Positions 41,725 through 62,935 of a stretch of DNA of 64,000 nt are shown here, one piece after another (positions within the stretch are counted from its first letter, which is position 1; each line of letters starts with the position of its first letter). Origin of the DNA: Leucobacter sp. wl10 (lineage in GTDB: Bacteria; Actinomycetota; Actinomycetes; Actinomycetales; Microbacteriaceae); NCBI RefSeq assembly GCF_003569785.1, contig NZ_KZ983988.1:62001-126000 (forward strand). Direction: 5' to 3'. The notes below the pieces were generated by a model that saw only the letters and a program-made list of their open reading frames with translations, had not been told where the DNA came from and ran no database searches. A program made the translations under genes and the position numbers.

Positions 41725-42678
41725 TCAGCCCTGTGCGAGTGCGGCCGCGATGATGCGGTGCGCGGGGAGGATGCTGCGGCGCTCCTCGTCGGCGTCGACG
41801 CGCCCCCCGACGAGGTCGACGAAGTGCTCGAACTGAGCCGCGAGCGGCTCGAGGCCCGAGACCTCCGGCACCTCCATCTCCGTCATCTGCCGGAAGCCGA
41901 CCTTGTCGCCCGTGCTCTCGATGTTCGTGTGGCGGTACTTCGTCACGCCGCGCAGCAGCAGGTCGACTTCCACCATGGAGTCGAGCGACTGCACCGTCAC
42001 GCGGCGCACCTTGCGCTGACCGATGCGGCTCGCGGAGGCCGAGGCGATCCCGCCTCCGGGGAAGCGCAGCGTCATGTCGATGACGTCTTCGGCGCCCGCC
42101 ACCGATTCCGGGTGGAAGAAGCCGAGCTCGGAGCTCACCGAATCGGGCGTGACCGATCCGTACATGCGCGAGACGAGGTCGGCGTCGTGCACCAGCATGT
42201 CCCACGCGACGCCCGTCTTGATGCGCGACCAGTACGGCGAGTGCCGTTCGGCGCGCACGTAGACCGGTTCTTCGATGAGCGACTGCGCCGCGAGCACGCC
42301 GGCGTTGAAGCGCTCCAGGAACCCGCACTGCACCGGCACTCCCGCGCGCTCCGCCGCCTGGAGGATCTCCTCGGTCTGCTCGAGCGATGGACACACCGGC
42401 TTCTCGATGAGCACCGGGAGGCCCGCGTCGAGCACCTGCTTCGCGATGCCATAGTGGTACTCGGTCGAGGCCGCGACCACCACCGCGTCGGCGCGCTTCA
42501 GTGCCTCCTCGGCCTCCGGGTACCACTCGCCGCCGTACTGCTCGGTCGCCGCACGGCCGCTGGCCTCGAACGGGTCGACGATGCCGGCCAGCTCGGCGCG
42601 GGCCGAGGAAGAGATGATGCGCGCGTGGTTGCGCCCCATCGCGCCGGCTCCGAAGAGGACGATGTTCGGGTTTGCCAT
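41725..42678 (-). CDS. Gfo/Idh/MocA-family sugar dehydrogenase (possible UDP-sugar 3-dehydrogenase)
   Basis: This 317-residue NAD(P)-dependent oxidoreductase has a Rossmann motif GAGAMG at 10-15, and the EKPVCPS block at 92-98 contains the catalytic-type Lys93 of the family. Then come GFLERFNAGV and a C-terminal beta-sheet domain. In surface glycan loci such proteins (GnnA, WlbA) oxidise the C3 hydroxyl of UDP-GlcNAc-type sugars, so that a DegT aminotransferase can place an amino group there. A DegT enzyme lies at 57799-58911 and LpxA/LpxD-like acyltransferases lie in the same locus, so this role is plausible but inferred. GAGGAG precedes the ATG at 42678. Confidence 0.88.
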   Translation of the reverse strand: MANPNIVLFGAGAMGRNHARIISSSARAELAGIVDPFEASGRAATEQYGGEWYPEAEEALKRADAVVVAASTEYHYGIAKQVLDAGLPVLIEKPVCPSLEQTEEILQAAERAGVPVQCGFLERFNAGVLAAQSLIEEPVYVRAERHSPYWSRIKTGVAWDMLVHDADLVSRMYGSVTPDSVSSELGFFHPESVAGAEDVIDMTLRFPGGGIASASASRIGQRKVRRVTVQSLDSMVEVDLLLRGVTKYRHTNIESTGDKVGFRQMTEMEVPEVSGLEPLAAQFEHFVDLVGGRVDADEERRSILPAHRIIAAALAQG

Positions 42679-42718
42679 GCTTGCTCCTCACCACACTGAC
42701 GACGCGCCCAACCGGGCG

Positions 42719-42809
42719 GGATCGACGCGGACCCCACTAGTCTATGAGTTTCCACCGGGGAAGCCGCCGAGCACGCGCTACAGTCGTGGCATGACTGCAG
42801 CTCTCACCG
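42719..42809 (+). repeat. diverged copy of the LpxD-like gene's promoter and start region
   Basis: This stretch matches 44784-44872 closely, including an unbroken shared block from AGTCTATGAGTTTCCACC through the GCTACAGTCGTGGCATGACTGC start region, with a two-base and a few single-base differences. Both copies include the TACAGT -10 element and the ATG six bases after it. This is evidence of a duplication that once covered the LpxD-like gene. Confidence 0.8.
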
Positions 42810-42892
42810 GCCAGTCCCTCGCGCGAGCGCTGCCCAGCAACCGACGTCGTTCCGAAGAATCCTCTTCCCCGCAACAAAGGAGCAGGGTCTGA
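42791..42892 (+). pseudogene. truncated 5' remnant of a second LpxD-like gene
   Basis: The frame begins MTAALTGQSLARALPS, against MTALTAQTIASDFSAR in the intact LpxD-like gene at 44854. Similarity fades after about 16 codons and the frame stops at 42892 after 33 codons. Its -10 element (TACAGT, 42779-42784) is intact, so it may still be transcribed. It is best read as the left end of a duplicated copy whose remainder was lost. The rest of the interval up to 42994 holds no recognisable gene. Confidence 0.6.
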
Positions 42893-42994
42893 CGTATTCA
42901 ACGACTCGGAACGGCAAGAACCGTCGTCCCCGCCTCTGCGACCGGAGTACCGCATTCAGCGAACTCGGCAGCCGCCCTGATGCGCGGTTCCCGC

Positions 42995-43267
42995 TTACTC
43001 ATCGATATAGACGCACTCCTGATTTGCACACGGGTCTTTCAACGATGGAGACACTTCGTCCCAACCCGGTGGGAAATCCCAAGGACCAATCGTTCGCTGG
43101 CCAGTACCTCCGCCGGGCGCCGGCGTCTCAACTGGAGCAATGCTGGGGACGGGGAGGTCAACATCCTCGCGGCCTGTTTGAAACCGCCCAGCCGACGCTA
43201 CTGCCGCACCGCCGACGCCGACGACAACCACCGCAACCGCCACCCCGCAAAGAACCCATTTGCGCAT
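42995..43267 (-). CDS. small secreted protein with C-terminal C-x4-C tail
   Basis: This 90-residue protein has an N-terminal signal peptide (KW then a Val/Ala/Gly-rich core to about residue 25, with an AxA-type cleavage site near VASA). A Pro/Gly-rich middle follows, and then the C-terminal tail SLKDPCANQECVYIDE. The two cysteines, four residues apart, could form a disulphide outside the cell. The upstream 60-residue gene ends in a closely similar tail. A strong GGAGG lies before the ATG at 43267. It is the third gene of the AT-rich island's minus-strand unit, after the protease. The family is unknown to me. Confidence 0.65.
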   Translation of the reverse strand: MRKWVLCGVAVAVVVVGVGGAAVASAGRFQTGREDVDLPVPSIAPVETPAPGGGTGQRTIGPWDFPPGWDEVSPSLKDPCANQECVYIDE

Positions 43268-43319
43268 CGTCTACCTCCGCCCACACGGCCCCCATGTCAC
43301 CATACTCGCAGGCACTGGC

Positions 43320-43502
43320 TTACTCCTCAACGAAAACGCAGTCCTTCTTCGAACAGATGTCTTCAAGCCCGTCAGGGAATTCGGCGCCCGCCCCCTTCGA
43401 GGGTCCGACCGACATGAGACCGGGGCCCGGCCGGTCGGCAGGAACATCCAGGGTCAACCCCGGTTCGGCGCCTCGGCCATACGGAGAAGAGAAGACATTC
43501 AT
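43320..43502 (-). CDS. small protein with C-x4-C tail, coupled to the protease
   Basis: This 60-residue protein has an ATG overlapping the protease stop (ATGA), which argues for real translation; an in-frame GTG at 43514 is an alternative. It has no signal peptide. Its C-terminus GLEDICSKKDCVFVEE parallels that of the next gene (SLKDPCANQECVYIDE): the same Cys spacing, the same Val after the second Cys and an acidic end. The rest is Gly/Pro-rich. It could be an inhibitor, chaperone or substrate of the protease, or a decayed paralogue of the neighbour that lost its signal peptide. The function is unknown. Confidence 0.55.
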   Translation of the reverse strand: MNVFSSPYGRGAEPGLTLDVPADRPGPGLMSVGPSKGAGAEFPDGLEDICSKKDCVFVEE

Positions 43503-44277
43503 CCACGCCCCCACTGGCTGAGCAGCGTGTCTATCGGAATGTAAACCGCACCGATACGTATACCACTTATAGAGATCGATCCCACGTGCATACCAACGGC
43601 CTTCACCCCTGCACTTGTCGCTTGCCAGACCGGCCCTCCGGAGTCACCGCCCGAAGACCAGTAGTTCGTAACAAAAGCTCGAACACCCTTCCAGCTGGTG
43701 GTTCCCGTGATGCGACCCTCAGTCCAGCCGGTAGTCTTGCCCATCTTTCCCACAAGTACGCCCGAGTACTGAGAGGAAGTAGGCATGGTGCCGGTGACAC
43801 GCCCCGTTCCTCCTGGTCCAGGACGAGCACCGGTTCTCGGGTCGACAACGATCTGGTATGGGATGACATTGCTGTAGTACGAGAAAAACATTGAGTCACC
43901 GTTTGGGCTGGACTTCTTAGCGGCTATGGTGCCGAACGCTGAACCAGTGCCGTACACAGTACTTCCAACACCACCCCCACAATGCGCCGCGGAGAGAATG
44001 AACCAGCCTGAGTAGCCGCTAACGATCCAGGAGGCGGTGCAAGAACCCGGATTGTAGCCAGGCGAGTTGAAGTAGATAGGATCCCCGACAAGGTAGCCGT
44101 ATGTGGCACGAGCGCCCTTCGCGGAACCCGCGTCCTCAGAGGGTTCCTGCGCGAAGACATCCCCTGCTTGAGAGTGATACTCCTGGCCAGTCCCATTGGC
44201 CACCGCAGGAGCGCCTGATGTTGCCATCAACACCAGTCCTGCCACTACGCCTATCAATCTAAGTCTTTTTTAAGCAT
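43499..44277 (-). CDS. secreted trypsin-like serine protease (S1), start interrupted by a one-base frameshift in an A-run
   Basis: The main frame (252 codons from 44257) is an S1 chymotrypsin-fold protease: His in SAAHCGGG, Asp in PNGDSMFF, Ser in SSGGDSGGPVW, and Cys before and after the His loop. Its own start is only a TTG with no ribosome-binding site. The proper start is ATG 44277, with AAAGGA eight bases upstream, but it runs out of frame. One more A in the six-base A-run (44266-44271) would join them as MLKKRLR then LIGVVAGLVLMATS, a complete signal peptide (259 residues in total). So this is a frameshift, a slippage-controlled gene, or a sequencing error. Base composition is unlike the neighbouring genes. 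Confidence 0.8.
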
Positions 44278-44550
44278 TTGTTCTTTCCTTTGAGAATTTT
44301 GCACATGTATTAAACATATGTAATGGTATGCATACACCTCTCAATTTACATACTTAAAAAATTATTAACAAGTTATGTCTCGTCAAGATTCATATTCTTT
44401 ACTTTAGGGTCTTAATAGTTTTCATGTGCAATCCATCTGCTAATCGTGACTACCAGTTCTGGCACTATTGGAAGATTCCGATCACGCCTGCACAGAACAG
44501 AGAAGACCGCTCGGAAACGAACCGGTAGAGCTGGTAATCCAGCTCTGTGT
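44278..44550. other. AT-rich non-coding stretch upstream of the protease
   Basis: The stretch contains runs such as TTAAAAAATTATTAACAAG and is far more AT-rich than the rest of the window. It includes the protease ribosome-binding site and probably its promoter; TTGACG occurs on the minus strand near 44393, but no well-spaced -10 could be fixed. A small perfect hairpin (AGAGCTGG/CCAGCTCT, 44527-44546) lies at its right end. I see no gene here. It marks the island as horizontally acquired. Confidence 0.6.
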
Positions 44551-44764: not shown

Positions 44765-44841
44765 TTTGATAACGCGACCGCACGGATCGACGCGAACTCC
44801 CCCAGTCTATGAGTTTCCACCGGGGAAGCCGCCGAGCGCGC

Positions 44842-44853
44842 TACAGTCGTGGC
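44842..44853 (+). promoter_or_regulatory. -10 element of the LpxD-like gene (leaderless)
   Basis: TACAGT at 44842-44847 is followed by six bases and the ATG at 44854, with no ribosome-binding site. The same element and spacing are preserved in the duplicated copy (42779-42784, ATG 42791), which supports its being functional. Confidence 0.6.
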
Positions 44854-45756
44854 ATGACTGCCCTCACCGCTCAGACCATCGCCTCCGATTTCTCCGCACG
44901 GCTGATCGGCGAGGACCTGCCGGTCTCCGGGCCCGCGCCGCTCGCCGACGCCGGCTCCGGCGCCGTCACCTTCGTCGGCGACACCGGCAAGTACGCGGCC
45001 GACTTCGCGCGGGCGATGGCGAGCGGCGCGGTCGTGCTCGCCCCGCTCGGCACCGAGCTTCCCGGGGGCGCCGCCGGCGCCCTGATCCTCGTCGAGAATC
45101 CGCGAGCGGCCTTCGGACAGACCGTCGCCCGCCATTTCGCCCCCCGCTCCGAACCGGGCATCGCCGAGACGGCGCGGATCCACCCCACGGCGCGCGTGCA
45201 CGAGACCGCGCACGTCGGCGAGTACACGGTGGTGCGCGCGGGCGCCGTCCTCGAGGCGCACGCCGAGGTGCGGGACCACGTGGTCATCGGGCACAACGTG
45301 GTCGTCGGCGAGCACGCGCTCGTGAAGAGCCAGGCCGTCATCGGCGAGGAGGGATTCGGAATCGAGAAGGACGCCGACGGCAACAACTTCCACGTGCCGC
45401 ACATCGGATCCGTGCGCCTCGGCGCGCACACCGAGGTCGGCAACTTCACCACGGTCTGCTCGGGGACGATCGCCCCCACCACGATCGGCGACTACACCAA
45501 GATCGACGATCACGTGCACATCGCGCACAACTGCCGCATCGGCAGGAACGTCATCGTGACGGCGTGCGCCGAGATCTCGGGCAGCGTCGTGATCGAGGAC
45601 GACGTCTGGATCGGGCCCAACGCATCGGTGATCCAGGGGCTCACGCTCGGCAGGGACTCTCTGCTGGGGATCGGGGCGGTCGCGGTGAAGTCGATCCCGG
45701 AGAACGAGGTGCGGGTGGGCAATCCGGCGAAGCGCCTCGGCGACAATAAGAGATGA
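44854..45756 (+). CDS. LpxD-like N-acyltransferase (left-handed beta helix)
   Basis: This 300-residue homologue of LpxD (UDP-3-O-acyl-glucosamine N-acyltransferase) has an N-terminal uridine-binding-type domain (1-100), then hexapeptide repeats with the LpxD landmarks AVIGEEGFGI (about 161-170), VPHIGSVRLG (181-190) and HIAHNCRIG (222-230), with His225 at the position of the catalytic His. LpxD transfers a 3-hydroxyacyl chain from ACP to an amino sugar in Gram-negative lipid A synthesis. Finding it in an actinobacterial glycan locus suggests acylation of an amino-sugar nucleotide here. It is convergent with the deacetylase-like gene of the ACP operon (20 bases apart). Confidence 0.88.
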   Translation: MTALTAQTIASDFSARLIGEDLPVSGPAPLADAGSGAVTFVGDTGKYAADFARAMASGAVVLAPLGTELPGGAAGALILVENPRAAFGQTVARHFAPRSEPGIAETARIHPTARVHETAHVGEYTVVRAGAVLEAHAEVRDHVVIGHNVVVGEHALVKSQAVIGEEGFGIEKDADGNNFHVPHIGSVRLGAHTEVGNFTTVCSGTIAPTTIGDYTKIDDHVHIAHNCRIGRNVIVTACAEISGSVVIEDDVWIGPNASVIQGLTLGRDSLLGIGAVAVKSIPENEVRVGNPAKRLGDNKR

Positions 45757-45776
45757 CGGCCGGGCCCGCCGAGGCT

Positions 45777-46451
45777 TCAGTAGTTCTCGGCGGGAACCTT
45801 CTCGAACCACCAGAACGGGTGGGTGAGCACCTGCATCAGCGGCTCCCTGCCCACCCACAGCCCGAAGTGCCCCTCGCGCCACCGGCCGCTCGAATCGCTG
45901 AGGTACTTCATATCGGGCATCATGAAGCGCGTCTCGTAGGCGTGATAGGCGACCGAGTCGCTCCACCGCTCCAGCAGCCCGTTCGCGAACTCCATTCCTC
46001 CCATGCGCGCGGGCTCGTGGGAGCTGAATCCGCCGAGCGGGCGCCCTACGGCGGCCTCGAACACCGCGCGCTGACGATCGGCCCACTCGAGGTCGTCGCC
46101 GCCGAGCCATCCGCACACACCCCCCTCCAGGTGAAGCTGGACCTCATGGCCCAGCTGCTCCATCTCCTGCACGATGCGCAGCGACGGCAGGCTGAGCAGG
46201 TTGTACCCCTGAGCGTGCACGCGCAGGAAGAAGGTCGCAGTGCAGCCGGCCTCGGCGTCGATGCGCGCCACCCGCGCGGCCTGCTCGATGGTGTTGTCGA
46301 TGTCGTGCCGCAGGATCATGTGCCGCTCCCGCGGCTCGGCGAGATACCGCTCGAAGCTCGTCACCGCGTAGCCCGCCTCCCGGTAGGCGCGCAGCGTATC
46401 GGCGTAGGAACGAAGCGAGTAGTCGTGGGTCTCGAAGCTCTGCACCTTCAT
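45777..46451 (-). CDS. polysaccharide deacetylase-like (CE4-type) protein
   Basis: This 224-residue protein has a CE4/NodB-like fold: the metal-type motif LRHDIDN (His49, Asp50, Asp52), GHEVQLHLE, a SSHEP block and a late THPFWW, as in deacetylase-like proteins of O-antigen loci. It has no signal peptide, so it should act on a cytosolic sugar nucleotide or lipid-linked sugar. Last gene of the ACP-ketoreductase-KAS III operon, it could free an amino group before the LpxD-like enzyme acylates it, playing the part of LpxC. That role is inferred. Confidence 0.75.
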   Translation of the reverse strand: MKVQSFETHDYSLRSYADTLRAYREAGYAVTSFERYLAEPRERHMILRHDIDNTIEQAARVARIDAEAGCTATFFLRVHAQGYNLLSLPSLRIVQEMEQLGHEVQLHLEGGVCGWLGGDDLEWADRQRAVFEAAVGRPLGGFSSHEPARMGGMEFANGLLERWSDSVAYHAYETRFMMPDMKYLSDSSGRWREGHFGLWVGREPLMQVLTHPFWWFEKVPAENY

Positions 46452-46533
46452 CGGCCCTGCACTTTCGGGGTAGGGGACATCATGTCGTTCATCGATCGGA
46501 TCCTCCCGCGCCGGAGCCTCCCCGGCGCGGGCC

Positions 46534-47550
46534 TCACCACTCGAGGACGAGGCCGCCCCAGGAGAGGCCGACGCCGAAGCCGAGCAGCATCACCCGCATT
46601 CCCCGCCGGAGCACCCCCTCGCGCTGGGCCTCGGTGAGCGCGATCGGAATCGTCGATGAGACCGTGTTGCCCGTCTCGGCGAGCGACACGAAGAACCTCT
46701 CCCGGGGCACCTTCAGCTTCTTGCGCAGGTGCTCGAGCATGAAGGCGTTGGCCTGGTGAAAGACGAACAGGTCGACGTCGTCGAGTTGCAGGCCCTCCCG
46801 CTCGAGAATCCGAGCGACCGAGTGGGGCACCACCCGCAGCGTGAAGTTGAAGATCTCGGGCCCGTCCATGAACAGGTCGTAGCCGTTGCTCGAGATGCCG
46901 CGCTCGGAGGCCGCGGACTTCGGCTCGAGGTCGGTACCGGGCCGCAGCCCGCCGTTCGGCACCACGAGGTGCCTGGCCCCCGAACCGTCGGTGCCGTACA
47001 ACGGGGCGCCGATCCCGCGGCCCGCGGCACCCTCATCCTGCTCGGCGACGAGCGTCGCCGCCGCACCGTCGCCGAAGATGGTGCGCACGCTCTTGTCGGC
47101 CGGGTTCACGAACTTGGTGTAGGTGTCCGAGGTGATCACCAGCACGCGCAACGCCTGACCGGACTCGATGAGACCCTTCGCCTGGCCGAGCGCGTAGATG
47201 TATCCCGAGCAGCCCAGGTTGAGATCGACGGCCCCCGCGTCGATGCGCAGGCCGAGCCCCTCGTGCACGATGCACGCCGTCGTCGGCAGAAAGTAGTCGG
47301 GGCTCTGCGTGCACACGATGAGGTAGTCGATCGAGTGCGCCTCGATGCCGTGCTCCTCGAGCAGGCGGTTTCCGGCGGCGATCGCGAGGTCCGACGTGAA
47401 TTCGTCCTCGGCCGCGACGCGGCGGCGGTGCACCCCCGTCTTGGCGGCGATCTTCTCGACCGACCACTCGGGGAACTCGGCGGAGAGCTCCTCGTTCGAA
47501 AGCACTCGCTCGGGCAGGTGATAGCCGACAGCGACGACACGTACGGTCAT
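46534..47550 (-). CDS. 3-oxoacyl-ACP synthase III-like enzyme
   Basis: This 338-residue FabH-family enzyme has its catalytic triad complete: Cys114 in NLGCSGYIYA, His265 in FHQANAF, Asn295 in ETGNTVSS. The family condenses a short acyl-CoA with malonyl-ACP to 3-oxoacyl-ACP. It lies in the same minus-strand run as a ketoreductase and an ACP (17 bases after this gene's start), so it probably makes a dedicated short acyl-ACP rather than serving bulk fatty acid synthesis. The minus-strand TAGAGT lies seven bases before its ATG, suggesting its own leaderless start as well. Confidence 0.9.
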   Translation of the reverse strand: MTVRVVAVGYHLPERVLSNEELSAEFPEWSVEKIAAKTGVHRRRVAAEDEFTSDLAIAAGNRLLEEHGIEAHSIDYLIVCTQSPDYFLPTTACIVHEGLGLRIDAGAVDLNLGCSGYIYALGQAKGLIESGQALRVLVITSDTYTKFVNPADKSVRTIFGDGAAATLVAEQDEGAAGRGIGAPLYGTDGSGARHLVVPNGGLRPGTDLEPKSAASERGISSNGYDLFMDGPEIFNFTLRVVPHSVARILEREGLQLDDVDLFVFHQANAFMLEHLRKKLKVPRERFFVSLAETGNTVSSTIPIALTEAQREGVLRRGMRVMLLGFGVGLSWGGLVLEW

Positions 47551-47566
47551 GCCTCAGACTCTACAC

Positions 47567-48352
47567 TTAGTTTGCGGTGTATCCGCCATCCACTACCAGC
47601 GTGGTACCGGTGACCCACCTCGCAGCGGGCGACAGCAGGTAGAGCGCGGCGTTCGCCACGTCCTCGGGCGAGCCGACGCCCAGCGGGTGAGCGGCTTCGA
47701 TGGCCTCCCATCCGGCCTGCCCCACGGTGCGCCGCAGTCGTGCTGTGAGCGGCGTCTCGACGATGCCGGCCGCGATACTGTTCACGCGCACGCCCTCGGG
47801 CGCCAGCTCGAGCGCGAGCGAGCGCGCGAGCGACGACACCGCGGCCTTCGACGCCGCGTACACGCTCACCCCGGGCTCGCCGACCAGGCCCGCGGCCGAC
47901 GACATGAGCACCACGCTCGCACGCTCGGCCCGCACCTTCGGGCTGCGGAACGCCTTGACGAGCAGCACGCTGCTCGTCACGTTCGCGCTGAGCAGTGTGT
48001 TCACGTGCTTCGCGGTGATGGCGCGCAGCGGGGCGGCCGCGTGCTCTCCCGCGGCGTGCAGCATGCCGTCGAGCGGACCCATCTCGCCGACGATGCCGGC
48101 GAAAAGCTCACCGTGGCCCGCGTGCTCGGCCAGGTCGGCGGCGAAGGCGCGGTGCCCCTCCCCGTCGAGCATCGAGGCCGTCTCACCAAGCGCATCCGCG
48201 CGGCGCGCGACCAGCGCCACGCGCGCGCCCTCGCGGCTCGCGGCGACCGCGGCAGCCCGGCCGATCCCCGACGAGGCGCCGGTGATCAGCAGCGCACGTC
48301 CGGCGAGGCCCAGGAAGTCCCGGTCCTCCGCGTCAGCCGCCGAGGGGATCAC
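47567..48352 (-). CDS. SDR ketoreductase, FabG-like
   Basis: This 261-residue short-chain dehydrogenase/reductase has a cofactor motif TGASSGIG at 24-31, the catalytic Ser in MSSAAGLVG and Tyr/Lys in YAASKAAV, and a C-terminal VVDGGYTAN. It probably reduces the 3-oxoacyl-ACP made by the KAS III next to it to 3-hydroxyacyl-ACP. Its ATG overlaps the ACP stop (ATGA), so the two are coupled. No dehydratase or enoyl reductase is encoded in the operon. Confidence 0.9.
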   Translation of the reverse strand: MIPSAADAEDRDFLGLAGRALLITGASSGIGRAAAVAASREGARVALVARRADALGETASMLDGEGHRAFAADLAEHAGHGELFAGIVGEMGPLDGMLHAAGEHAAAPLRAITAKHVNTLLSANVTSSVLLVKAFRSPKVRAERASVVLMSSAAGLVGEPGVSVYAASKAAVSSLARSLALELAPEGVRVNSIAAGIVETPLTARLRRTVGQAGWEAIEAAHPLGVGSPEDVANAALYLLSPAARWVTGTTLVVDGGYTAN

Positions 48353-48567
48353 CGCGCGGCGGTCACGAGCGCGAGCAGATCGTCGACCGTCTCCGCCTTG
48401 GCGAGCTCGTCAGCGTCGATCTCGGCGCCGAGGCGCTCGTCGATCTCGGCGATGAAGGAGAGGTTGGCGAGAGAGTCCCACCCCTGCTCCTCGAGGCTCT
48501 TCGTTTCCGAGGCTTCATCGACTTCGAGAATCTCGGCGACCAGCTGCAACAGCGACTGCTTATCCAT
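48349..48567 (-). CDS. acyl carrier protein
   Basis: This 72-residue acidic helical protein has the phosphopantetheine site GWDSLANL, with Ser32. It carries the acyl chain for the ketoreductase, KAS III and, by inference, the LpxD/LpxA-like transferases. It is a private ACP rather than the housekeeping one: the site reads GWDSL instead of the usual DSLD. The minus-strand TAGGAT six bases before the ATG points to a leaderless promoter heading the operon. Confidence 0.9.
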   Translation of the reverse strand: MDKQSLLQLVAEILEVDEASETKSLEEQGWDSLANLSFIAEIDERLGAEIDADELAKAETVDDLLALVTAAR

Positions 48568-48648: not shown

Positions 48649-48687
48649 ATGGAAACGACCGGACGAACGGGTGCTCGCCCGCTGTGA
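48649..48687 (+). CDS. 12-codon leader ORF overlapping the glycosyltransferase start
   Basis: The ATG at 48649 opens METTGRTGARPL and stops at TGA 48685-48687, which overlaps the GTG start of the transferase (GTGA). The -10 element six bases upstream makes it a probable leaderless leader peptide. Since the transferase itself has no ribosome-binding site, translation of the leader may deliver ribosomes to it by termination-reinitiation. Confidence 0.4.
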   Translation: METTGRTGARPL

Positions 48688-49913
48688 ATCGCAACGCCTA
48701 CCCGTCCTGGATGAACGCCCTGATCGACCGGATCGCGGACGCGCCGATGAGCCCGATCGGCCGGATCGCGGCCAGGCGCCTCGGCAGGTCGGCCCCGCGG
48801 GGCTCGATCCCGACCACCGCCTTCGACGACAGGCCGATCCGGGTGCTCATCGCGCCCGTCAACTACTCGGGCCAGGGCATCGTCTGGGCGCGCGCGCTCG
48901 AGGCGCTCGATCCCGGTATCTCGGCCCGCAACATGGCGATGGAGGTGCCGGGCGGCTTCTCCTTCGACGCCGACCTCCTCGTACCCGTCGGCACCTATCA
49001 CAACGACCCCGACTGGCAGCGGCGGCAGTTCGCGGCTGCGGCGAGCGCGACGCACGTGCTCATCGAGGCCGAGGAGCCGCCGTTCGGCCGCCTCATGGGC
49101 CGCTCGGTCGCCGCGCAGGCCCGCGCGCTGCAGGAGCGGGGGGTGAACGTCGCGTTCCTCGCCCACGGCACCGACATCCGGCTGCCCTCGCGTCACATCG
49201 CCGGGAACCCTCTCTCCTACTACGACGACCCCGCGGTGTACCTGCCGCGGGCCGAGCAGCTCGCGGCGCGCAACATCGCGCTCGTCACCGGCAGCGGAAG
49301 GCCCGCGTTCGTCTCGACCCCCGACCTGCTCGTCGATCTGCCCGGCGCTCGGTGGTGTCCCGTCGCCGTGGATCCGGAGCGCTGGGCGGCGCAGGATCGC
49401 ATCGAGCGCGCGCCCGGCGCACCGCTGCGGGTGGTGCACGCGCCCTCCGTCGCGGCGTACAAGGGCACGGACATGATCCTGCCGACGCTCGAACGGCTGC
49501 GCGACGAGGGTCTCATCGAGTTCCGGCTCGTGCGCGGCGTGCCCTCGCGCGACATGCCCGCGGTGTTCGCCGAGGCCGACGTGATGCTCGACCAGTTCCG
49601 CGCCGGCTCGTACGGCGTCGCCGCGTGCGAGGCGCTCGCCGCTGGCTGCCTCGCCGTGGGGCAGGTCTCGCCCCAGGTGCGATCCGCGGTGCGCGAGGAG
49701 ACGGGTCGCGAGCTCCCCGTCCTCGAGGCCGACCCCGACTCGCTCGAGACGCTGCTGCGCGGCCTCGCAACCGCGCAGGACCTCACCCCCGCACGCGCGA
49801 GGGGCGTCGAGTTCGTGCGCGCGGTGCACGACGGGCGGCTCGCGGCCCGAGCGCTCCGCGATCACTGGATCGCCCCCGATCGAAAGGACCCCGCCGGTGC
49901 ACCCCGCAGCTGA
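48684..49913 (+). CDS. GT4-like glycosyltransferase, paralogue A
   Basis: This 409-residue protein has an N-terminal Rossmann half with IRVLIAPVNYSGQGIVWARALE (about 50-71) and a C-terminal GT4-type donor half with AYKGTDMILPTLERL and DQFRAGSYGVAACEALAAG, whose Glu is in the usual nucleotide-sugar position. Two further intact paralogues (49897, 52246) and a broken copy (44551) share these blocks. I cannot name the family. Start GTG 48684 overlaps the leader ORF; ATG 48711 is an alternative. The stop lies inside the start of the next paralogue, so they form one operon. Confidence 0.82.
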   Translation: MNRNAYPSWMNALIDRIADAPMSPIGRIAARRLGRSAPRGSIPTTAFDDRPIRVLIAPVNYSGQGIVWARALEALDPGISARNMAMEVPGGFSFDADLLVPVGTYHNDPDWQRRQFAAAASATHVLIEAEEPPFGRLMGRSVAAQARALQERGVNVAFLAHGTDIRLPSRHIAGNPLSYYDDPAVYLPRAEQLAARNIALVTGSGRPAFVSTPDLLVDLPGARWCPVAVDPERWAAQDRIERAPGAPLRVVHAPSVAAYKGTDMILPTLERLRDEGLIEFRLVRGVPSRDMPAVFAEADVMLDQFRAGSYGVAACEALAAGCLAVGQVSPQVRSAVREETGRELPVLEADPDSLETLLRGLATAQDLTPARARGVEFVRAVHDGRLAARALRDHWIAPDRKDPAGAPRS

Positions 49914-55995: not shown

Positions 55996-57789
55996 CTACC
56001 GCACGTAGTCGGCGAGGCCCGCGAGGGCGACCTGCTCGCCGAAGGCGGGGTGCCGCCGCGCCACCTCGGCGAAGGTGCCGTGCGCCACGATCACGCCGTC
56101 GTCGAGGTAGCACAGCCGGTCGTAGTCCTTGATGGTCGAGAGGCGGTGCGCCACCGAGATGAGGGTCACCTCGCCCTGCAGCGCCTTGATGGACCTCGTC
56201 ACCTCGTCCTCGGTCTTCGTGTCGAGCGAGCTGGTCGCCTCGTCGAGCACGAGCACGAGCGGATCGGTGTAGAGCGCGCGGGCGATCCCGAGCCGCTGCT
56301 GCTGCCCGCCCGAGAGGGAGACGCCCCGCTCCCCGATGCGCTCGTCGATGCCGCCGGCCCGCGACGCGATGAGCGAGCCCAGCTGCGCCCGCTCGAGCGC
56401 GTGCATCACGCGGTCGCGGTCGATCTCGTCGGCCCAGGTGAGCGCGACGTTCTGGGCGATGGTGCCGTCGAAAAGGGCCACCCGCTGCGGCACGTAGCCC
56501 ACGCGCCCGCGCCACTGCCGCAGCACGGACCGCAGGGGCTCCCCGTCGAGCGAGATCTCGCCCGAGGAGGGCTGGCTGAGGCCGAGCAGCAGGTCGATGA
56601 GCGTCGACTTGCCCGCGCCGGACGGCCCGACGATGCCGACCGAGCTGCCGAGCGGGATGTCGAGCGACATGCCCCGGATCACGTCCTCGTCGGCGCCCGG
56701 GTAGCGGAATCGCACGTCGTCGAGACGCAGGCGGCGGGGGTTCTCGGCGAGCTCGGCCGTGTCGGCAGGGGTCTGCGAGGTCTGGATGTCGCGCTCCGAG
56801 GTGATGAGGTCGCCGACCACGTCGCGCGCGCCGGGGATGCTCGCGGTCGCCTGCACGATGCCGCCCTGCATGCCGGTCAGGGCCGGGATCAGCCGGAACC
56901 CCGTGGCGGCGAACAGCGCGACCGACGCGAGCGCCGACTGCATGCTCCCCTGCCAGGCCGAGAAGCCGCCGATGAGCACGATGCCGCCGAGCAGCGCGGC
57001 CTCGTAGGCGAAGCCGGGCAGCACCCCCAGAAACGACCCGTTCGCCCGGGCCCGCGTGCTGTGACGTCGATTGGCGGTGACGAGGTCGGCGACCTCGCCG
57101 AGACGGTTGCGCAGGCTGAGCTCCTTGAGCGCCTCGATCATCTCGGTCATGAGGTTGGCCACGCGGTAGCTGTAGTCGAGGTTGACCTGGCCGGCCTCGA
57201 GCGCTCGCTTCGTGACGACGAAGTGCACGAGCAGCATGACGAGCGAGAGGTACACGAACGCGATGACCGAGGTCTGGGGATCGGCTGCCACGAGCACGCC
57301 CAGCACCAGCACGAAGGTGAAGAACGCCGAGGGCACCCGCGTGAGCGGCAGCACGAAGCCGGCCATGGTGTTGGCGATGCCGGCGTCGGCGATCCTCGTG
57401 ATCTCCGCCACCGAGCGCTTCGACCGCTCCTCCCAGCTGGAGTTGATGTAGGCGCGGAAGAGCCGGTCGCCGATCTCGAGCTCGTACTTGGCGAAGCGCC
57501 GCGTGGCGAACCACTGCAGCACCACGTTGAGCACCGACTTCAGCATCATGAGCGCGAGCGCGATGAGCACGAGCACCGGCGCGGCCTCGGCCGGCACCTC
57601 GCCCACCAGAGGCACCGAGATCGGCTGGCTCTCGATCGCGCGCGGGAGGGTGAGCGCGAGCAGCGACATGCCGAGCGCGTCGAGCCCCGCGATCAGGCTC
57701 GTCACCACGACGTAGCCGACGAAGTAGCGCTGCGCGCCTTTCGGGAGGAGCGGCAGCAGCTGCAGGAGGACCCGCCAGATCTCTTTCAT
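55996..57789 (-). CDS. ABC exporter half-transporter (glycolipid flippase type)
   Basis: This 597-residue type IV ABC exporter has six transmembrane helices in residues about 20-310, then a nucleotide-binding domain with Walker A GPSGAGKST (about 384-392), signature LSGGQQQR and Walker B VLVLDEATSSLD, followed by the switch His in SVAHRLST. The layout resembles PglK/MsbA-like flippases that move lipid-linked sugars across the membrane. It probably works as a homodimer. It lies ten bases before the DegT aminotransferase gene in the direction of transcription, so they share an operon. Confidence 0.9.
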   Translation of the reverse strand: MKEIWRVLLQLLPLLPKGAQRYFVGYVVVTSLIAGLDALGMSLLALTLPRAIESQPISVPLVGEVPAEAAPVLVLIALALMMLKSVLNVVLQWFATRRFAKYELEIGDRLFRAYINSSWEERSKRSVAEITRIADAGIANTMAGFVLPLTRVPSAFFTFVLVLGVLVAADPQTSVIAFVYLSLVMLLVHFVVTKRALEAGQVNLDYSYRVANLMTEMIEALKELSLRNRLGEVADLVTANRRHSTRARANGSFLGVLPGFAYEAALLGGIVLIGGFSAWQGSMQSALASVALFAATGFRLIPALTGMQGGIVQATASIPGARDVVGDLITSERDIQTSQTPADTAELAENPRRLRLDDVRFRYPGADEDVIRGMSLDIPLGSSVGIVGPSGAGKSTLIDLLLGLSQPSSGEISLDGEPLRSVLRQWRGRVGYVPQRVALFDGTIAQNVALTWADEIDRDRVMHALERAQLGSLIASRAGGIDERIGERGVSLSGGQQQRLGIARALYTDPLVLVLDEATSSLDTKTEDEVTRSIKALQGEVTLISVAHRLSTIKDYDRLCYLDDGVIVAHGTFAEVARRHPAFGEQVALAGLADYVR

Positions 57790-57798: not shown

Positions 57799-58911
57799 CT
57801 ATGCACCCGCGCTCAGCACGGCGGTGACGCCGGCGACGATCCGGTCGAGATCACCCTCGCTCAGCGAGGGGTGCACCGGCAGCGACAGCACCTCGGCCGC
57901 GGCCCGCTCGGTCTCGGGCAGCTCCAGACCCGGCGCGAACGGGGCCAGCGAGGGCAGGCGGTGATTCGGGATCGGGTAGTACACGCCCGAGCCGACGTTG
58001 TGCTCCTCCTTCAGCGCGTCGCGCAGGCGATCGCGCTCGGCCGCGTCGACGCGGATCGTGTACTGGTGGTAGACGTGCACCGCGTCCTCGGCCACGTGGG
58101 GCGTCGTCACCCCGGCCACCCCGGCGAGCCCGGCGTTCAGCACGGCCGCGTTGCTGCGGCGGCGCTCGGTCCACGCGTCCACCTTCCTCAGCTGCGCCCG
58201 CCCGATCGCCGCGTGCACGTCCGTCATCCGCGCATTGAACCCCACCACCTCGTTGGCGTACTGCGTCTCCATGCCCTGATTGCGCAGCAGACGCACCCCC
58301 CGCGCGATCTCCTCGCTCGCGCACGAGACCATGCCGCCCTCGCCCGAGGTCATGTTCTTCGTGGGGTACAGGCTGAACATCGCGAAGTCGCCCAGGGTGC
58401 CCACCGGCCGACCCCGCCACGACGCTCCGTGCGCCTGCGCCGCATCCTCGTAGATCGCCAGGCTGTGCTCCTTCGCGATCGCCTCGAGCTCGTCCACCAG
58501 GAACGGGTGCCCGTAGAGGTGCACCGGCATGATCCCCTTGGTGCGCGGCGTGATCGACGCCCGCACCGACTCGGGGTCGAGCGTGAACGTGCGCGGCTCG
58601 ATGTCCGCGAACACCGGCGTCGCCCCTGTCAGCGCCACCGAGTTGCCCGTCGCCGCGAAGGTGAACGACGGCACGATCACCTCGTCCCCCGGCCCCACGC
58701 CCGCCGCGAGCAGGCCCAGGTGCTGGCCGCTCGTACCCGAGTTCACCGCCACCGTCGCGCGCCCGCGCACGAAGTGCTCGGCGAACTCCCGCTCGAACGC
58801 CGCCACCTCCGGACCCTGCGCGATCATCCCCGACCGCAGCACCCGGTCCACCGCCTCCCGCTCCTCGTCGCCGACGATCGGCCTCGCCGCGGGAATGAAC
58901 TCAGCTGACAT
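57799..58911 (-). CDS. DegT/DnrJ/EryC1 sugar aminotransferase
   Basis: This 370-residue PLP-dependent aminotransferase makes amino sugars on nucleotide carriers. It has TSGQHLGLLA (phosphate-binding region), EDAAQAHGA with Asp156, and the PLP lysine Lys185 in FSLYPTKNMTSGEGG. In GnnB and WlbE pathways this class follows a Gfo/Idh dehydrogenase to give a 3-amino sugar; such a dehydrogenase is encoded at 41725-42678. The product could be the amine acylated by the LpxA/LpxD-like enzymes. ATG 58911 has AAAGGTGG upstream; the in-frame extension to 58944 lacks support. Confidence 0.92.
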   Translation of the reverse strand: MSAEFIPAARPIVGDEEREAVDRVLRSGMIAQGPEVAAFEREFAEHFVRGRATVAVNSGTSGQHLGLLAAGVGPGDEVIVPSFTFAATGNSVALTGATPVFADIEPRTFTLDPESVRASITPRTKGIMPVHLYGHPFLVDELEAIAKEHSLAIYEDAAQAHGASWRGRPVGTLGDFAMFSLYPTKNMTSGEGGMVSCASEEIARGVRLLRNQGMETQYANEVVGFNARMTDVHAAIGRAQLRKVDAWTERRRSNAAVLNAGLAGVAGVTTPHVAEDAVHVYHQYTIRVDAAERDRLRDALKEEHNVGSGVYYPIPNHRLPSLAPFAPGLELPETERAAAEVLSLPVHPSLSEGDLDRIVAGVTAVLSAGA

Positions 58912-58967
58912 GGATCCACCTTTCGCGCGCACGGGATCGCGCACTCATCATCTGCCAGAATACCCGC

Positions 58968-59791: not shown

Positions 59792-59798
59792 GCGCGCC

Positions 59799-60191
59799 AT
59801 GACCCTCTTCCAAGTGCTCCTCATCGCGATCGTGGTGATCGCGGCATCGCTCGCCGTGCGCTTCCTGCCGGGCGAGCGGTCGCTCGCGCTCAAGCGCATC
59901 TTCGCGATCCTCTTCGTCACCGCGGCCGTCGTGGCGATCCTGTTCCCCGGGATGCTGACGACCGTCGCGAACTTCTTCGGCATCGGGCGCGGCACCGACC
60001 TGCTGCTCTACCTCTTCATCGTGGCCATGCTCATCTTCGCGGTCTCGGTGGTGCGCGCGAAGGCCCGCAGCGACGCGCGGGTGACCGAGCTGGCTCGGGC
60101 GGTGGCCCTGATGGAGGCGCGGATCCGGGAGCGGGGCGACGCCGAGCACCCGCCGCGGCCGCGTTCCGGCACCGGGGAGACCGACGAGTGA
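59799..60191 (+). CDS. DUF2304 membrane protein
   Basis: This 130-residue protein has three hydrophobic helices (about 3-22, 34-54 and 66-86) followed by a charged coiled-coil-like stretch and a hydrophilic tail. It matches the DUF2304 family, which is typically found next to DPM1-type GT2 genes, as here (7 bases). A role as membrane anchor or partner of that transferase is likely. Its stop overlaps the next start (GTGA). Confidence 0.85.
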   Translation: MTLFQVLLIAIVVIAASLAVRFLPGERSLALKRIFAILFVTAAVVAILFPGMLTTVANFFGIGRGTDLLLYLFIVAMLIFAVSVVRAKARSDARVTELARAVALMEARIRERGDAEHPPRPRSGTGETDE

Positions 60192-62167
60192 GCTCCTGGA
60201 TCGCACTCGCGGCGGCTTCATCCCTGGCCGTCGCCATCATCGCGGTGCTCGGCATCCCGGCCGCCCTCGCCCTCCGGCTGCGCGGCTTCGCCGTGGTGGT
60301 CGTCGCGATCCCGGCGGGTCTCGCCGTCATAGCGCTCGCAAGCCTGCTCGCTCCGATCGCCGGGCTCGGCTGGTCCCTGCTGCCGGCACTCATCTGCGCG
60401 GCCGCCCTGGCTCTCCTCCTGCTCCTCCTGCGCAGATGGCTCGGCGTCGCGGCGCGGCCCCGGAACCCGGGCTCATCGATGCGGGCGCTCTGGATTCCCG
60501 TGGGAGCGGCTGCCGTGGGCGGCGGCGCGATCGCGCTGTCGCTGCTCGCCGGGCTCGGCGCCCCGGGCGCGGTGTCGCAGACCTTCGACGCGATGTTCCA
60601 TCTGAACGCGGTGCGCCACATCATGGACTCGGGGTCGGCGTCGCCGTTCGCGATGGACCTGACCTCTCCCGGTGCCCCGGCCTTCTATCCCACGCTCTGG
60701 CACGCCTATGTCTCGCTCATCGTGCAGCTGAGCGGCGTCTCCATCCCCGTCGCCACCAACGCGGCGCTCATCACCGTTTCGGCGGTGGTCTGGCCCCTCG
60801 GCGCCGTCGCCCTCGGACGCGCGGTCGCCGGACCGAGCACCAGGGTGACGCTCGTCTCCGGCGCGCTCTCGGCGGCGTTCGCCACCTTCCCGCTGTTCCT
60901 GGCGGGCTACGGGGTGCTCTACCCCAACCTGTTCTCGCTCGCGCTGCTGCCCTTCCTGCTCATGGCGATGCTGCAGCTGCTCAACGTCGGTCCCGCCCGC
61001 CGGGCGATGCCGCTGTCGGCGGGTACGCGCTGGATCCTCGCGCTCGGCGCGCTCGGCGCCGCCGTGCTCGCCCACCCCGGCGTGCTCTACGTGCTCCTCA
61101 TCTGGGCCGCCGCCCCCGTGCTCTTCGCGGCGGTGCGAGCTTGGCTCGGAGCCGCGGTCCCGGGGGCCGGGGGTCACAGGGTCCCCGGCGGCGCTCGCAG
61201 ATGGCTGCGCCGCCTCGCCGCGGTGGTCGGCGTGCTCGCGTTCGCGCTGTTCGCCATCGGGGCGTGGATCGTGGGACGCACCTCCGACAACTCGTGGTCG
61301 GGCTTCTACGGCCCTCGCCGGGCGGTACTCGAGATCATCGGCGGCACGCCCTTCCTCGAGGGGCACGCCTGGGCCGTCTCGGCGCTCGTGCTGTTCGGCG
61401 CGGTGCTGGCGTGGCGCTTCCGCCCCCTGCGCTGGCTGATCGGCAGCGCGGCTGCCCTCGCGGCGTTCTACTTCATCTCCGACGCGTTCCCCTCCTCCGA
61501 CTGGCGCACGCTCTTCTTGAGCCCGTGGTACAACGATCCGCGCAGGCTCGCCGCGCTGGTGCCGTTCGGCGCATTCCCGCTCGCGGTGCTCGGCGCATCC
61601 GCCGGGTGGACGATGCTCAGGCCCGGCCTGCGCCGCCTGGCGGCCATGTCGGCGCGTCCCCGCCGCTCGCTGCGCGTGCTGACGGCGGCGGCCCTCGTGT
61701 TTCTCGTCGCCGTCGGTCAGGCCGGCAGCGACTCTGCGCTGCGGGAGGTGCAGACGCGCTACGATCCGAAAGAGGGCACGCTGCTCAGCGAGGACGAGCT
61801 GCGCCTGCTGGAGCGCCTTCCCGACGAGGTGCCCGAGGACGAGGTCATCGCGAACAATCCGCTCAACGGCAGCGCCCTGGCCTACGCTCTGGCCGACCGG
61901 GAGGTCTTCTTCCCCCACGCGAACGGCAACTACGATCAGCGCTTCTACCAGCTCGTCGACGCGCTCGTGCCGAACCCGGCGACGGCGTGCGAGCTCTCCC
62001 GCGAGCTCGACGTCGAGTATGTGCTCGACTTCGGCACGCGATACATCTTCAAGAACGACACGGCCCGCGAGCAGCCGTTCAAGCGCATGAAGGATCTCGA
62101 CCGCTCCCCGGTCCTCACCGAGGTCGACCGGGAGGGCGATGCCGCGCTCTTCCGCATCTCCTGCTGA
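60188..62167 (+). CDS. large polytopic membrane protein (DUF6541-like; probable GT-C type)
   Basis: This 659-residue membrane protein has about twelve to fourteen hydrophobic helices. An early external loop carries TFDAMFHLNAVRHIMDSG (about 124-141) and a TSPGAPAFYPTLWHAY segment, the acidic-loop pattern of GT-C glycosyltransferases and DUF6541 proteins of actinobacterial glycan loci. A soluble C-terminal part of about 110 residues follows. It would use the lipid-linked sugar made by the GT2 two genes upstream. Start GTG 60188 overlaps the DUF2304 stop. Confidence 0.8.
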   Translation: MSSWIALAAASSLAVAIIAVLGIPAALALRLRGFAVVVVAIPAGLAVIALASLLAPIAGLGWSLLPALICAAALALLLLLLRRWLGVAARPRNPGSSMRALWIPVGAAAVGGGAIALSLLAGLGAPGAVSQTFDAMFHLNAVRHIMDSGSASPFAMDLTSPGAPAFYPTLWHAYVSLIVQLSGVSIPVATNAALITVSAVVWPLGAVALGRAVAGPSTRVTLVSGALSAAFATFPLFLAGYGVLYPNLFSLALLPFLLMAMLQLLNVGPARRAMPLSAGTRWILALGALGAAVLAHPGVLYVLLIWAAAPVLFAAVRAWLGAAVPGAGGHRVPGGARRWLRRLAAVVGVLAFALFAIGAWIVGRTSDNSWSGFYGPRRAVLEIIGGTPFLEGHAWAVSALVLFGAVLAWRFRPLRWLIGSAAALAAFYFISDAFPSSDWRTLFLSPWYNDPRRLAALVPFGAFPLAVLGASAGWTMLRPGLRRLAAMSARPRRSLRVLTAAALVFLVAVGQAGSDSALREVQTRYDPKEGTLLSEDELRLLERLPDEVPEDEVIANNPLNGSALAYALADREVFFPHANGNYDQRFYQLVDALVPNPATACELSRELDVEYVLDFGTRYIFKNDTAREQPFKRMKDLDRSPVLTEVDREGDAALFRISC

Positions 62168-62190
62168 TCATCCGGGCGTTTCCGGCGCAC

Positions 62191-62203
62191 TATGCTCGTT
62201 GCC
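62191..62203 (+). promoter_or_regulatory. -10 element for the leaderless LpxA-like gene
   Basis: TATGCT at 62191-62196 lies seven bases before the ATG at 62204 with no ribosome-binding site between. The in-frame ATG at 62192 lies inside the -10 element and is less likely to be used. Confidence 0.5.
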
Positions 62204-62935
62204 ATGAGCGACATCAGCCCGCACGCGATCATCGGTGAAGGAGTCGACGTCGGCGACGGCGTCAGGATCGGGCCGGGCGCCGTGATCCTCGGCCCGTGCG
62301 TGCTCGAGGACGGCGTCTGGATCGGGCCGGGCGCCCAGATCGGAGCTCCACCCGAGATGTCGAGCCTGCCGCAGAACGCGGCCTGGACCGGCGATCTGCA
62401 GCACGCGGGCGTGCGCATCCGGGCCGGCGCCGTGATTCGCGAGGGCGCCGTGATCCATCAGGGCACCTACCGCGAGACGGAGGTCGGCGAGCGGAGCTGG
62501 GTGCTGAATCGCGCGTACCTGGCGCACGACGTGCTCCTGGGCGCGGACGCGACGATCTCCGCCGGCGTCTCGATCGGGGGGCACTGCGTCATCGGTGATC
62601 GGGTGAACATCGGCATGAACGCGGTCGTGCACCAGCGGCGCGTCATCTCGCCCGGCGCGATGATCGGCATGGGCACGCCGGTCACCCGCGACGTCCCGCC
62701 GTTCGCGAAGGTCTACGGCACGCCCCCGCGTCTCTTCGGGGTGAACGCCGTCGGTCTCGAGCGCGCCGGGCACGAGGCGGCCCTTTCGGAGGCGCTCATG
62801 GCCCGCTATCGCGCGGGCGATCTGCTCACCGGCTCCGATCCGGAGTCCGCGAATCTCGGCACGCTCGGGGAGACCGTGGCGTGGTGGTCGGCCCGGCACG
62901 AGCTGCGACCCGTCTCCGTGGCTCCCGGTGTCTGA
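62204..62935 (+). CDS. LpxA-like acyltransferase (left-handed beta helix)
   Basis: This 243-residue homologue of LpxA (UDP-GlcNAc O-acyltransferase) has hexapeptide repeats throughout. LpxA landmarks are present in order: IREGAVIHQGT (78-88), AYLAHDVLLG with His108 at the catalytic position, MNAVVHQ, DVPPFAKVYG and the FGVNAVGLER turn before a helical C-terminus. The family moves a 3-hydroxyacyl chain from ACP to the 3-OH of UDP-GlcNAc, or to a 3-NH2 when a GnnA/GnnB-type sugar is available. It is slightly shorter than E. coli LpxA (262). The private ACP operon at 46534-48567 could supply the donor. Finding it in a Gram-positive locus is unusual. Confidence 0.87.
   Translation: MSDISPHAIIGEGVDVGDGVRIGPGAVILGPCVLEDGVWIGPGAQIGAPPEMSSLPQNAAWTGDLQHAGVRIRAGAVIREGAVIHQGTYRETEVGERSWVLNRAYLAHDVLLGADATISAGVSIGGHCVIGDRVNIGMNAVVHQRRVISPGAMIGMGTPVTRDVPPFAKVYGTPPRLFGVNAVGLERAGHEAALSEALMARYRAGDLLTGSDPESANLGTLGETVAWWSARHELRPVSVAPGV

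Follow-up and report, generated by a model that had tools for sequence, protein, structure and literature searches.

The window analyzed here is a stretch of 64,000 nucleotides from Leucobacter sp. wl10 (contig NZ_KZ983988.1, positions 62001-126000; genome 3.81 Mb, 98.8% complete; G+C 68.5%). It carries a locus, set in a large surface-glycan region of this Microbacteriaceae genome, that encodes homologues of the acyltransferases LpxA and LpxD, a deacetylase candidate, two sugar-modifying enzymes and a private acyl carrier protein (ACP) with two companion enzymes. The region is rich in glycosyltransferases and also encodes an MsbA/PglK-type ATP-binding cassette (ABC) protein and a Wzm-type permease. 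Gene coordinates are window positions, and G-numbers and L-numbers designate genomes and fetched loci or regions, respectively. Module A denotes the Gfo, DegT and LpxA-like genes, and module B the CE4-fold gene and the LpxD-like gene. The principal features are as follows.

41725-42678, minus strand: Gfo/Idh/MocA dehydrogenase, GnnA-like UDP-N-acetylglucosamine (UDP-GlcNAc) 3-dehydrogenase candidate, module A (Pfam GFO_IDH_MocA, 85.8 bits)
44809-45756, plus strand: LpxD-like N-acyltransferase, module B (likely start 44854; NCBIfam, PF04613, Foldseek, tree)
45777-46451, minus strand: CE4/NodB-fold deacetylase candidate, module B (AlphaFold and Foldseek; tail-to-tail with the LpxD-like gene, 20 bases between)
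46534-47550, minus strand: FabH-type beta-ketoacyl-ACP synthase III (KAS III; NCBIfam KAS III 293.5 bits, cut-off 249; Cys/His/Asn motifs intact)
47567-48352, minus strand: FabG-like short-chain reductase (adh_short_C2, 182 bits; YAASK and TGASSGIG motifs)
48349-48567, minus strand: private ACP, 72 amino acids (PF00550, 40.8 bits, cut-off 20.8; DSL phosphopantetheine motif)
57799-58944, minus strand: DegT sugar aminotransferase, GnnB-like candidate, module A (Pfam DegT, 410.5 bits; lysine motif SLYPTKN)
62192-62935, plus strand: LpxA-like N/O-acyltransferase, module A (likely start 62204; NCBIfam, PF13720, alignment, tree)

For the LpxD-like protein, LpxD was the best NCBIfam family (191.3 bits, E 2.4e-56, far beyond chance), leading the next family, NeuD (104.8), by 86 bits, with LpxA (98.3) and, much lower, GlmU (33.9) after it. 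The scores fall below the curated LpxD cut-offs (191.3 against 207 for the subfamily model and 172.2 against 242.5 for the equivalog), and the N-terminal LpxD domain PF04613 scores 37.3 bits, above its cut-off of 30.8. An AlphaFold model (predicted local distance difference test score, pLDDT, 77.7, with a weak C-terminus) gave 25 Foldseek hits at E ≤ 0.001, all of them LpxD, with template modeling (TM) scores by query of 0.40 to 0.51. Active-site positions were counted in an alignment of 10 relatives, four further rows being left out. His225 (numbered from start 44854) corresponds to the catalytic H239 of E. coli LpxD and is kept in nine of the 10 relatives, with Asn in L073; F41 is also kept in the window protein. 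By its sequence the protein is an LpxD homologue that scores below the lipid A cut-offs.

The LpxA-like protein likewise matched LpxA best (141.5 bits, E 2.5e-41; curated cut-off 226), followed by NeuD (105.0) and LpxD (71.8). Its C-terminal domain PF13720 scores 29.0 bits against a cut-off of 24.5, covering only domain positions 1-41 of 82. Residue H108 (start 62204) aligns with E. coli LpxA H125, which we take to be catalytic, and H144, H160, Q161, N198 and R204 are kept as well; N198 and R204 presumably lie on the uridine side. Among 24 correctly read relatives, H125, H160, Q161, N198 and R204 occur in all and H144 in 23. The position of E. coli G173 holds Met in the window protein and in 22/24 relatives (Gln in one, Ala in one), a change that we take to shorten the accepted acyl chain. 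These features mark the protein as an LpxA homologue, again below the lipid A cut-off.

A tree of 40 acyltransferases (one more was dropped by the program) contains several long branches. In it, the window LpxA-like protein and 13 others join E. coli LpxA with support 99/99, the LpxD-like protein and 11 others join E. coli LpxD with 92/93, and 11 Wlb-type rows (77/47) and GlmU fall apart from both groups. Profiles, Pfam domains and tree, together with the LpxD fold, thus make both proteins LpxA/LpxD homologues despite their sub-cut-off scores. A GlmU- or Wlb-type identity of the two acyltransferases is ruled out by the profiles and the tree. The preliminary description of this DNA had noted LpxD landmarks with His225 at 44854-45756 and LpxA landmarks with His108 at 62204-62935, and this was borne out; the grouping with GlmU/WlbB-type enzymes that it had named as a refuting result was not seen in the sequences.

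The Gfo/Idh gene at 41725 and the DegT gene at 57799 are also present as previously described. For the Gfo protein, the best NCBIfam model is an archaeal UDP-GlcNAc 3-dehydrogenase (120.4 bits, below its cut-off of 450), and the best PDB chain is 7bvj (E 1.1e-19; entry named "Oxidoreductase, NAD-binding"), which we take to be GnnA of Acidithiobacillus ferrooxidans. The reference entries of PMC8549069 include a paper on the GnnA structure. According to PMC8036547, GnnA and GnnB act on UDP-GlcNAc en route to GlcN3N.

Genes for LpxA-like proteins were found in 17 of 239 genomes of the family Microbacteriaceae and in 5 of 228 of the order, with our own genome counted in both. Nineteen new regions were fetched around such genes; the window and G047 were not among them. 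Both Gfo and DegT matches lie within 10 kb of the LpxA-like gene in 18/19 regions, L138 having neither. In the window and G047 the DegT gene is near and the Gfo gene lies about 20 and 16 kb away, respectively, so that the proportion with these two included is 18/21. A tight Gfo-DegT-LpxA triplet occurs in 12 of the 19 regions (L143-L154). L114 (a tight triplet) and L115 (a triplet with an insertion) were both reached through the Pfam LpxA domain; L102 and L105, from the same search, are too short for a verdict. The window Gfo gene nests in a clade of triplet Gfo genes (100/99). As judged from sequence and neighborhood, Gfo, DegT and the LpxA-like gene are the gene set of GnnA, GnnB and LpxA, and the linkage predicted by the earlier GnnA/GnnB reading holds in many genomes.

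In 5/5 Leucobacter-type genomes that have an LpxA-like gene but lack the window-type Gfo (G693, G694, G695, G696 and G911, the last counted as one genome with G151, with which it has contig numbers and an 87306-base contig in common), another Gfo gene lies less than about 120 bases from the LpxA-like gene. The window, G047 and G691 show the window-type Gfo only, so that the two kinds exclude each other in the genomes compared; this comparison leaves out G689, G690 and G692, which have the window-type Gfo. Six Gfo proteins of both kinds all have UDP-GlcNAc 3-dehydrogenase as their best NCBIfam model, all below cut-off. The two subfamilies (that of 41725-42678 and that of L137, L139-L142 and L155) seem interchangeable near the LpxA-like and DegT genes. 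This exchange is likely a non-orthologous replacement for one step.

The CE4-fold gene of module B is the fourth member of a minus-strand run, behind FabH. Its product matches nothing in Pfam or NCBIfam at E ≤ 0.001 (at E ≤ 1, just two unrelated models at chance level), and a PDB sequence search gave no match at E ≤ 1. The AlphaFold model has a pLDDT of 90.4 and a predicted TM-score of 0.88. Fourteen of its 15 Foldseek hits at E ≤ 0.001 are deacetylase-type (polysaccharide, chitin and peptidoglycan deacetylases, acetylxylan esterase, ArnD and IcaB), several of these entries showing one and the same protein; the remaining hit is a sugar epimerase, and TM-scores by query are only 0.39 to 0.54. 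R48, H49, D50, D52, H102, H107, S143 and H145 are invariant in 27 sequences, as are the His, Asp, Gly and Leu places of the RHDxD and GHxxxLH motifs, whose spacing is unlike that of the usual CE4 His motif. On the predicted model, the product is read as a deacetylase candidate.

Among named genomes, the nearest homologues of this protein belong to Leucobacter: L. chironomi (88%) and L. luti (84%). A single scan, run on named genomes with an alignment of three CE4 sequences as query, gave 30 loci (L051-L080). The close ones (L051-L063) belong to Leucobacter, Microbacterium and three bins; L053 ends too soon, leaving 12 testable. The LpxD-like gene lies less than 600 bases from the CE4 gene in 10 of these and less than 2.2 kb away in 11, including L063, where it stands 2.1 kb off, behind ACP-FabG-FabH. 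L058 is a close locus without an LpxD-like match. Farther afield, L077 (Armatimonadota) has an LpxD-like gene 45 bases before the CE4 gene, in L072 and L073 the distance is about 1.3 kb, and L075 has one at the contig end; in G578, a distant actinomycete, Gfo, CE4 and LpxD-like genes are consecutive. The CE4-fold protein is thus the likely partner of the LpxD-like protein. A homologue of 33% identity also occurs on a contig binned as a Woesearchaeota archaeon (L079, 9983-10642), with Gfo and DegT genes nearby.

The rest of the minus-strand run is compact, the ACP and FabG-like genes overlapping by 4 bases and the FabG-like and FabH genes being 16 bases apart. The ACP carries its WDSL motif from residue 30. 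The window FabH is a second copy; the other, housekeeping FabH is on contig 11 and 31% identical. The reductase is a short-chain dehydrogenase whose best Pfam model, adh_short_C2, is named for an enoyl-ACP reductase, and among the 25 NCBIfam models listed for it none reaches its cut-off; its FabG identity is inferred from sequence. The ACP/FabG/FabH operon reported earlier at 46534-48567 therefore stands as to genes, strands and motifs, whereas the FabG identity is unproven and the fourth gene at 45777-46451 had been overlooked. No dehydratase was seen among the annotated genes at 41.7-63.8 kb of the window, which, with FabH and one reductase, suggests a single round of elongation and a short 3-hydroxyacyl product.

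Window-type FabH (54-78% identical) occurs in 8 of 15 CE4-holding genomes, our own included, other copies being about 30-34% identical. The set sits in the same cluster in 7/8 of these; in G699, FabH is on another contig. Its position varies: between CE4 and GTx1 (a glycosyltransferase-like gene) in the window, between glycosyltransferases in L051, between CE4 and the LpxD-like gene in L063, and after the LpxD-like gene in L055, L057, L059 and L060. L055 has two FabH copies in tandem. G047 has the same cluster without the ACP-FabG-FabH set. In a Gfo-DegT cluster of G008, a different LpxD-like gene has as neighbors an ACP-like open reading frame (ORF) and a FabH that is only 29% like the window's.

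We tentatively read the locus, with confidence somewhat short of even, as making an acylated 2,3-diamino sugar for an exported surface glycan along the lines of early lipid A synthesis, the product not being lipid A. Homology, predicted folds, motifs and conserved neighborhoods are the basis; from these we infer the reactions and the sequence in which they run, as well as the acyl groups and the carrier, which would be a UDP-sugar or lipid-linked. In module A, the Gfo protein would oxidize C-3 of UDP-GlcNAc, DegT would then aminate this position, in the manner of GnnA and GnnB, and the LpxA-like protein would acylate the new C-3 amine (N-3), yielding a UDP-3-acylamido sugar. In module B, the CE4-fold protein would strip the 2-N-acetyl group in LpxC's place, and the LpxD-like protein would re-acylate the freed N-2, in this host most likely with a short (R)-3-hydroxyacyl group. 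The acyl group may be supplied by the private FabH, FabG-like protein and ACP, a single condensation followed by a single reduction yielding 3-hydroxybutyryl-ACP or a branched analogue. Removing an acetyl group only to put one back would be futile, so the LpxD-like protein is expected to add a non-acetyl group even where the set is missing. Cluster glycosyltransferases would assemble the glycan and the ABC exporters would export it. The complete scheme would be a Gram-positive counterpart to early lipid A synthesis, with every core step kept in altered form: GnnA/GnnB-like and LpxA-like enzymes, CE4 for LpxC, and an LpxD-like enzyme using private-ACP 3-hydroxyacyl groups would lead to a UDP-2,3-bis-acylamido sugar destined for a surface glycan and not for an outer membrane. 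As a whole, we consider this scheme somewhat unlikely.

Several observations weigh against the proposed reading. In the LpxD-like protein, the E. coli H276 column is Gly, as in 10/10 relatives (the window residue is Leu if the alignment is shifted by one, and L073 has His one place on). The protein also ends right after the beta-helix, without the E. coli C-terminal helix, which we take to be the docking place of ACP. E. coli M290 and M292, presumably the chain-length ruler of LpxD, are Ala in the window protein, giving no support for a short acyl group; judging from mutant work, Ala there could even permit longer chains. In the LpxA-like protein, E. coli K76 is replaced by Ala and H122 by Tyr (Lys at K76 is found in 1/24 relatives and His at H122 in 4/24). 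CE4 enzymes mostly are known to act on polymers or lipid-linked sugars.

The distribution of the genes also tells against it. Window-type FabH has no close homologue in 7/15 CE4-holding genomes, by which the ACP/FabG/FabH set is ruled out as an essential part. Four of the 15 CE4 genomes have no LpxA-like orthologue; among these, the weak match in G697 is its own LpxD-like gene, and G699 and G700 are metagenome bins and possibly incomplete. G014, G158 and G208 carry LpxA-like genes without any LpxD match; the modules can thus occur apart, which weakens the idea of a single inseparable pathway of all parts. Among the 17 farther or fragmentary CE4 loci (L064-L080; L078, a CE4 fragment only, was left uncounted), only L072, L073, L077 and L075 have an LpxD-like match starting by residue 91. 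Gfo, a Wlb-type enzyme and DegT stand in place of the LpxD-like gene in L065, L066, L068, L069 and L074, all Alphaproteobacteria-type, and in the remainder the LpxD-like match is absent or partial. CE4 thus tracks 2,3-diamino sugar genes more widely than it tracks the LpxD-like gene. Finally, a nucleotide sugar 6-dehydrogenase is encoded just downstream of the window (L038, 1496-2818, minus strand; 406 bits against a cut-off of 189.8), so that the glycan may also hold a uronic acid. The earlier proposal of an N/O-acylated (di)amino sugar locus therefore keeps the acyltransferase homology and the Gfo/DegT link, and is qualified by the optional ACP set (8/15), by the missing H276 and helix of the LpxD-like protein and by the overlooked CE4-fold protein as the likely partner of the latter.

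The genes of both modules are rare in the window's phylum: among 396 genomes, our own counted, CE4 was found in 8, the LpxD domain in 7 (2 over cut-off) and the LpxA domain in 5. An LpxD search of 299 family genomes gave matches in 34, only three beyond our own at at least 36% identity over most of the length. No literature on LpxA in Leucobacter was found in a search that most subscription journals fell outside.

The foremost alternative, which we hold to be unlikely, is that only module B depends on acyl-ACP: the LpxA-like protein would be an acetyltransferase making a UDP-2,3-diacetamido sugar, on which CE4 and the LpxD-like protein swap acetyl for 3-hydroxyacyl. The LpxA-like genes in genomes without an LpxD match fit this, Met at the G173 position in 22/24 relatives argues for a short acyl group, and 2,3-diacetamido sugars are known from actinobacterial wall polysaccharides; against it, the LpxA-like protein joins E. 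coli LpxA (99/99) and not the Wlb-type enzymes that one would expect to make such sugars. Distinctly unlikely is a second possibility, that the ACP, FabH and FabG-like proteins make a small N-acyl group (e.g., 3-hydroxybutyryl), as in the flagellin and O-antigen islands of Gram-negative bacteria, and that CE4 acts on the finished glycan. FabH with one reductase and no dehydratase among the annotated genes accords with such islands, which are known for Pseudomonas flagellin; among the papers listed in a literature search that most subscription journals fell outside, none dealt with these islands as judged by title and abstract. However, CE4 and LpxD-like genes lie within 2.2 kb in 11/12 testable loci and together in G578, and their pairing persists in L052, L054, L056, L061 and L062 with no ACP set alongside.

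Plain acetylation is very unlikely. Here the LpxA-like and LpxD-like proteins would be acetyl-CoA enzymes of 2,3-diacetamido synthesis, kin of LpxA and LpxD by descent only, and the ACP set would serve a lipid. The lack of H276 and of the C-terminal helix in the LpxD-like protein, and NeuD-type scores of about 105 bits for both acyltransferases, speak for it, but a deacetylase and acetyltransferase pair would be futile, and the ACP set stays in the cluster at varied positions. That lipid A or a lipid-A-like membrane anchor is made is extremely unlikely even with LpxA-, LpxD- and MsbA-like proteins in one locus, since the flippase reaches 232.5 bits against an MsbA cut-off of 602 and the genome has no match for LpxC (found in 4/14 control genomes) or LpxB (found in 6/14, 4 over cut-off). 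The sub-cut-off LpxA/LpxD scores and the absence of LpxC and LpxB matches, which had been proposed as a check, together argue that the product is not lipid A, and real lipid A synthesis is rejected on the latter ground.

The glycosyltransferases, exporters and membrane proteins of the locus are as follows.

48684-49913, plus strand: GTx1, glycosyltransferase-like (cross-matches with GTx2 and GTx3; no Pfam match at E ≤ 0.001)
49897-51069, plus strand: GTx2, glycosyltransferase-like (cross-matches with GTx1 and GTx3; no Pfam match at E ≤ 0.001)
51074-52249, plus strand: GT4-type glycosyltransferase (Pfam Glyco_trans_4_4, Glycos_transf_1)
52246-53463, plus strand: GTx3, glycosyltransferase-like (ORF opens at 51976, likely start 52246; no Pfam match at E ≤ 0.001)
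53548-54627, plus strand: GT2 glycosyltransferase (profile search)
54674-55759, plus strand: GT2 glycosyltransferase (profile search)
55996-57789, minus strand: ABC exporter/flippase of the MsbA/PglK kind (NCBIfam MsbA 232.5, PglK 203.4 bits)
60188-62167, plus strand: DUF6541 membrane protein (506 bits)
62928-63839, plus strand: predicted Wzm-type ABC permease for glycan export (best NCBIfam galactan_ABC_perm, 39.3 bits, cut-off 380)

GTx1, GTx2 and GTx3 are mutually related (cross-matches between window and G047 of 39-47%), and several clusters of Leucobacter and Microbacterium keep them in this order. None of the 25 NCBIfam models listed for the flippase is at its cut-off; the G047 counterpart is 82% identical. 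DUF2304 and DUF6541 membrane proteins span 59799-62167, and DUF6541 is found in 7/19 and DUF2304 in 5/19 of the regions fetched around LpxA-like genes. A trypsin-like secreted protease candidate (43499-44257, minus strand; GDSGGP motif by eye, Pfam Trypsin_2 below cut-off) lies between the Gfo and LpxD-like genes, and no counterpart was found within the 40 kb of the G047 region searched. Elsewhere in the surface-glycan region are an O-antigen-ligase-type protein at 18838, a GlfT2-like galactofuranosyltransferase at 32405 and a UDP-galactopyranose mutase at 39294 (score over cut-off).

Five known systems invite comparison. The locus resembles the GnnA-GnnB-LpxA branch of Acidithiobacillus ferrooxidans and Campylobacter jejuni in the genomic link of a Gfo dehydrogenase, a DegT transaminase and an LpxA homologue, and differs in its Gram-positive host, the lack of LpxC/LpxB matches, the sub-cut-off LpxA-like score and the changed K76 and H122. 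The LpxC-LpxD steps of the Raetz pathway are mirrored by a deacetylase candidate adjoining an LpxD homologue with an N-terminal LpxD domain; here the candidate has a predicted CE4/NodB fold, unlike the fold we take LpxC to have, and the LpxD homologue is without H276 and the C-terminal helix. The WlbA/WlbB/WlbC diacetamido pathway (WbpB/D/E) shares Gfo, DegT and a hexapeptide enzyme, and such clusters in Alphaproteobacteria hold CE4 relatives, whereas the two hexapeptide enzymes of this locus group with LpxA and LpxD. Nod factor synthesis (NodB, NodA, NodE, NodF and NodG) also couples a CE4 deacetylase to N-acylation from a dedicated ACP and synthase; the locus instead has an LpxD-like acyltransferase, a FabH-like synthase and a surface-glycan context. 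The flagellin and O-antigen islands, presumably for N-3-hydroxyacyl amino sugars, have a private ACP, KAS III and reductase beside sugar genes, and are not known to hold an LpxA/LpxD pair or a CE4 gene.

The presence of LpxA and LpxD is taken as a sign of a Gram-negative outer membrane, and homologues of both occur here in Gram-positive actinobacteria. PMC3087551 reports lipid A pathway genes in none of the seven Gram-positive genomes that it examined. The homologues described here have GnnA/GnnB-like partners, and an unrelated deacetylase candidate stands in for LpxC. If the proposed reading is true, the acyl-sugar chemistry of lipid A would be usable apart from lipid A and the outer membrane, Leucobacter and Microbacterium would hold a yet undiscovered glycan with amide-linked hydroxyacyl groups, and a testable function could be assigned to an unnamed CE4-like family.

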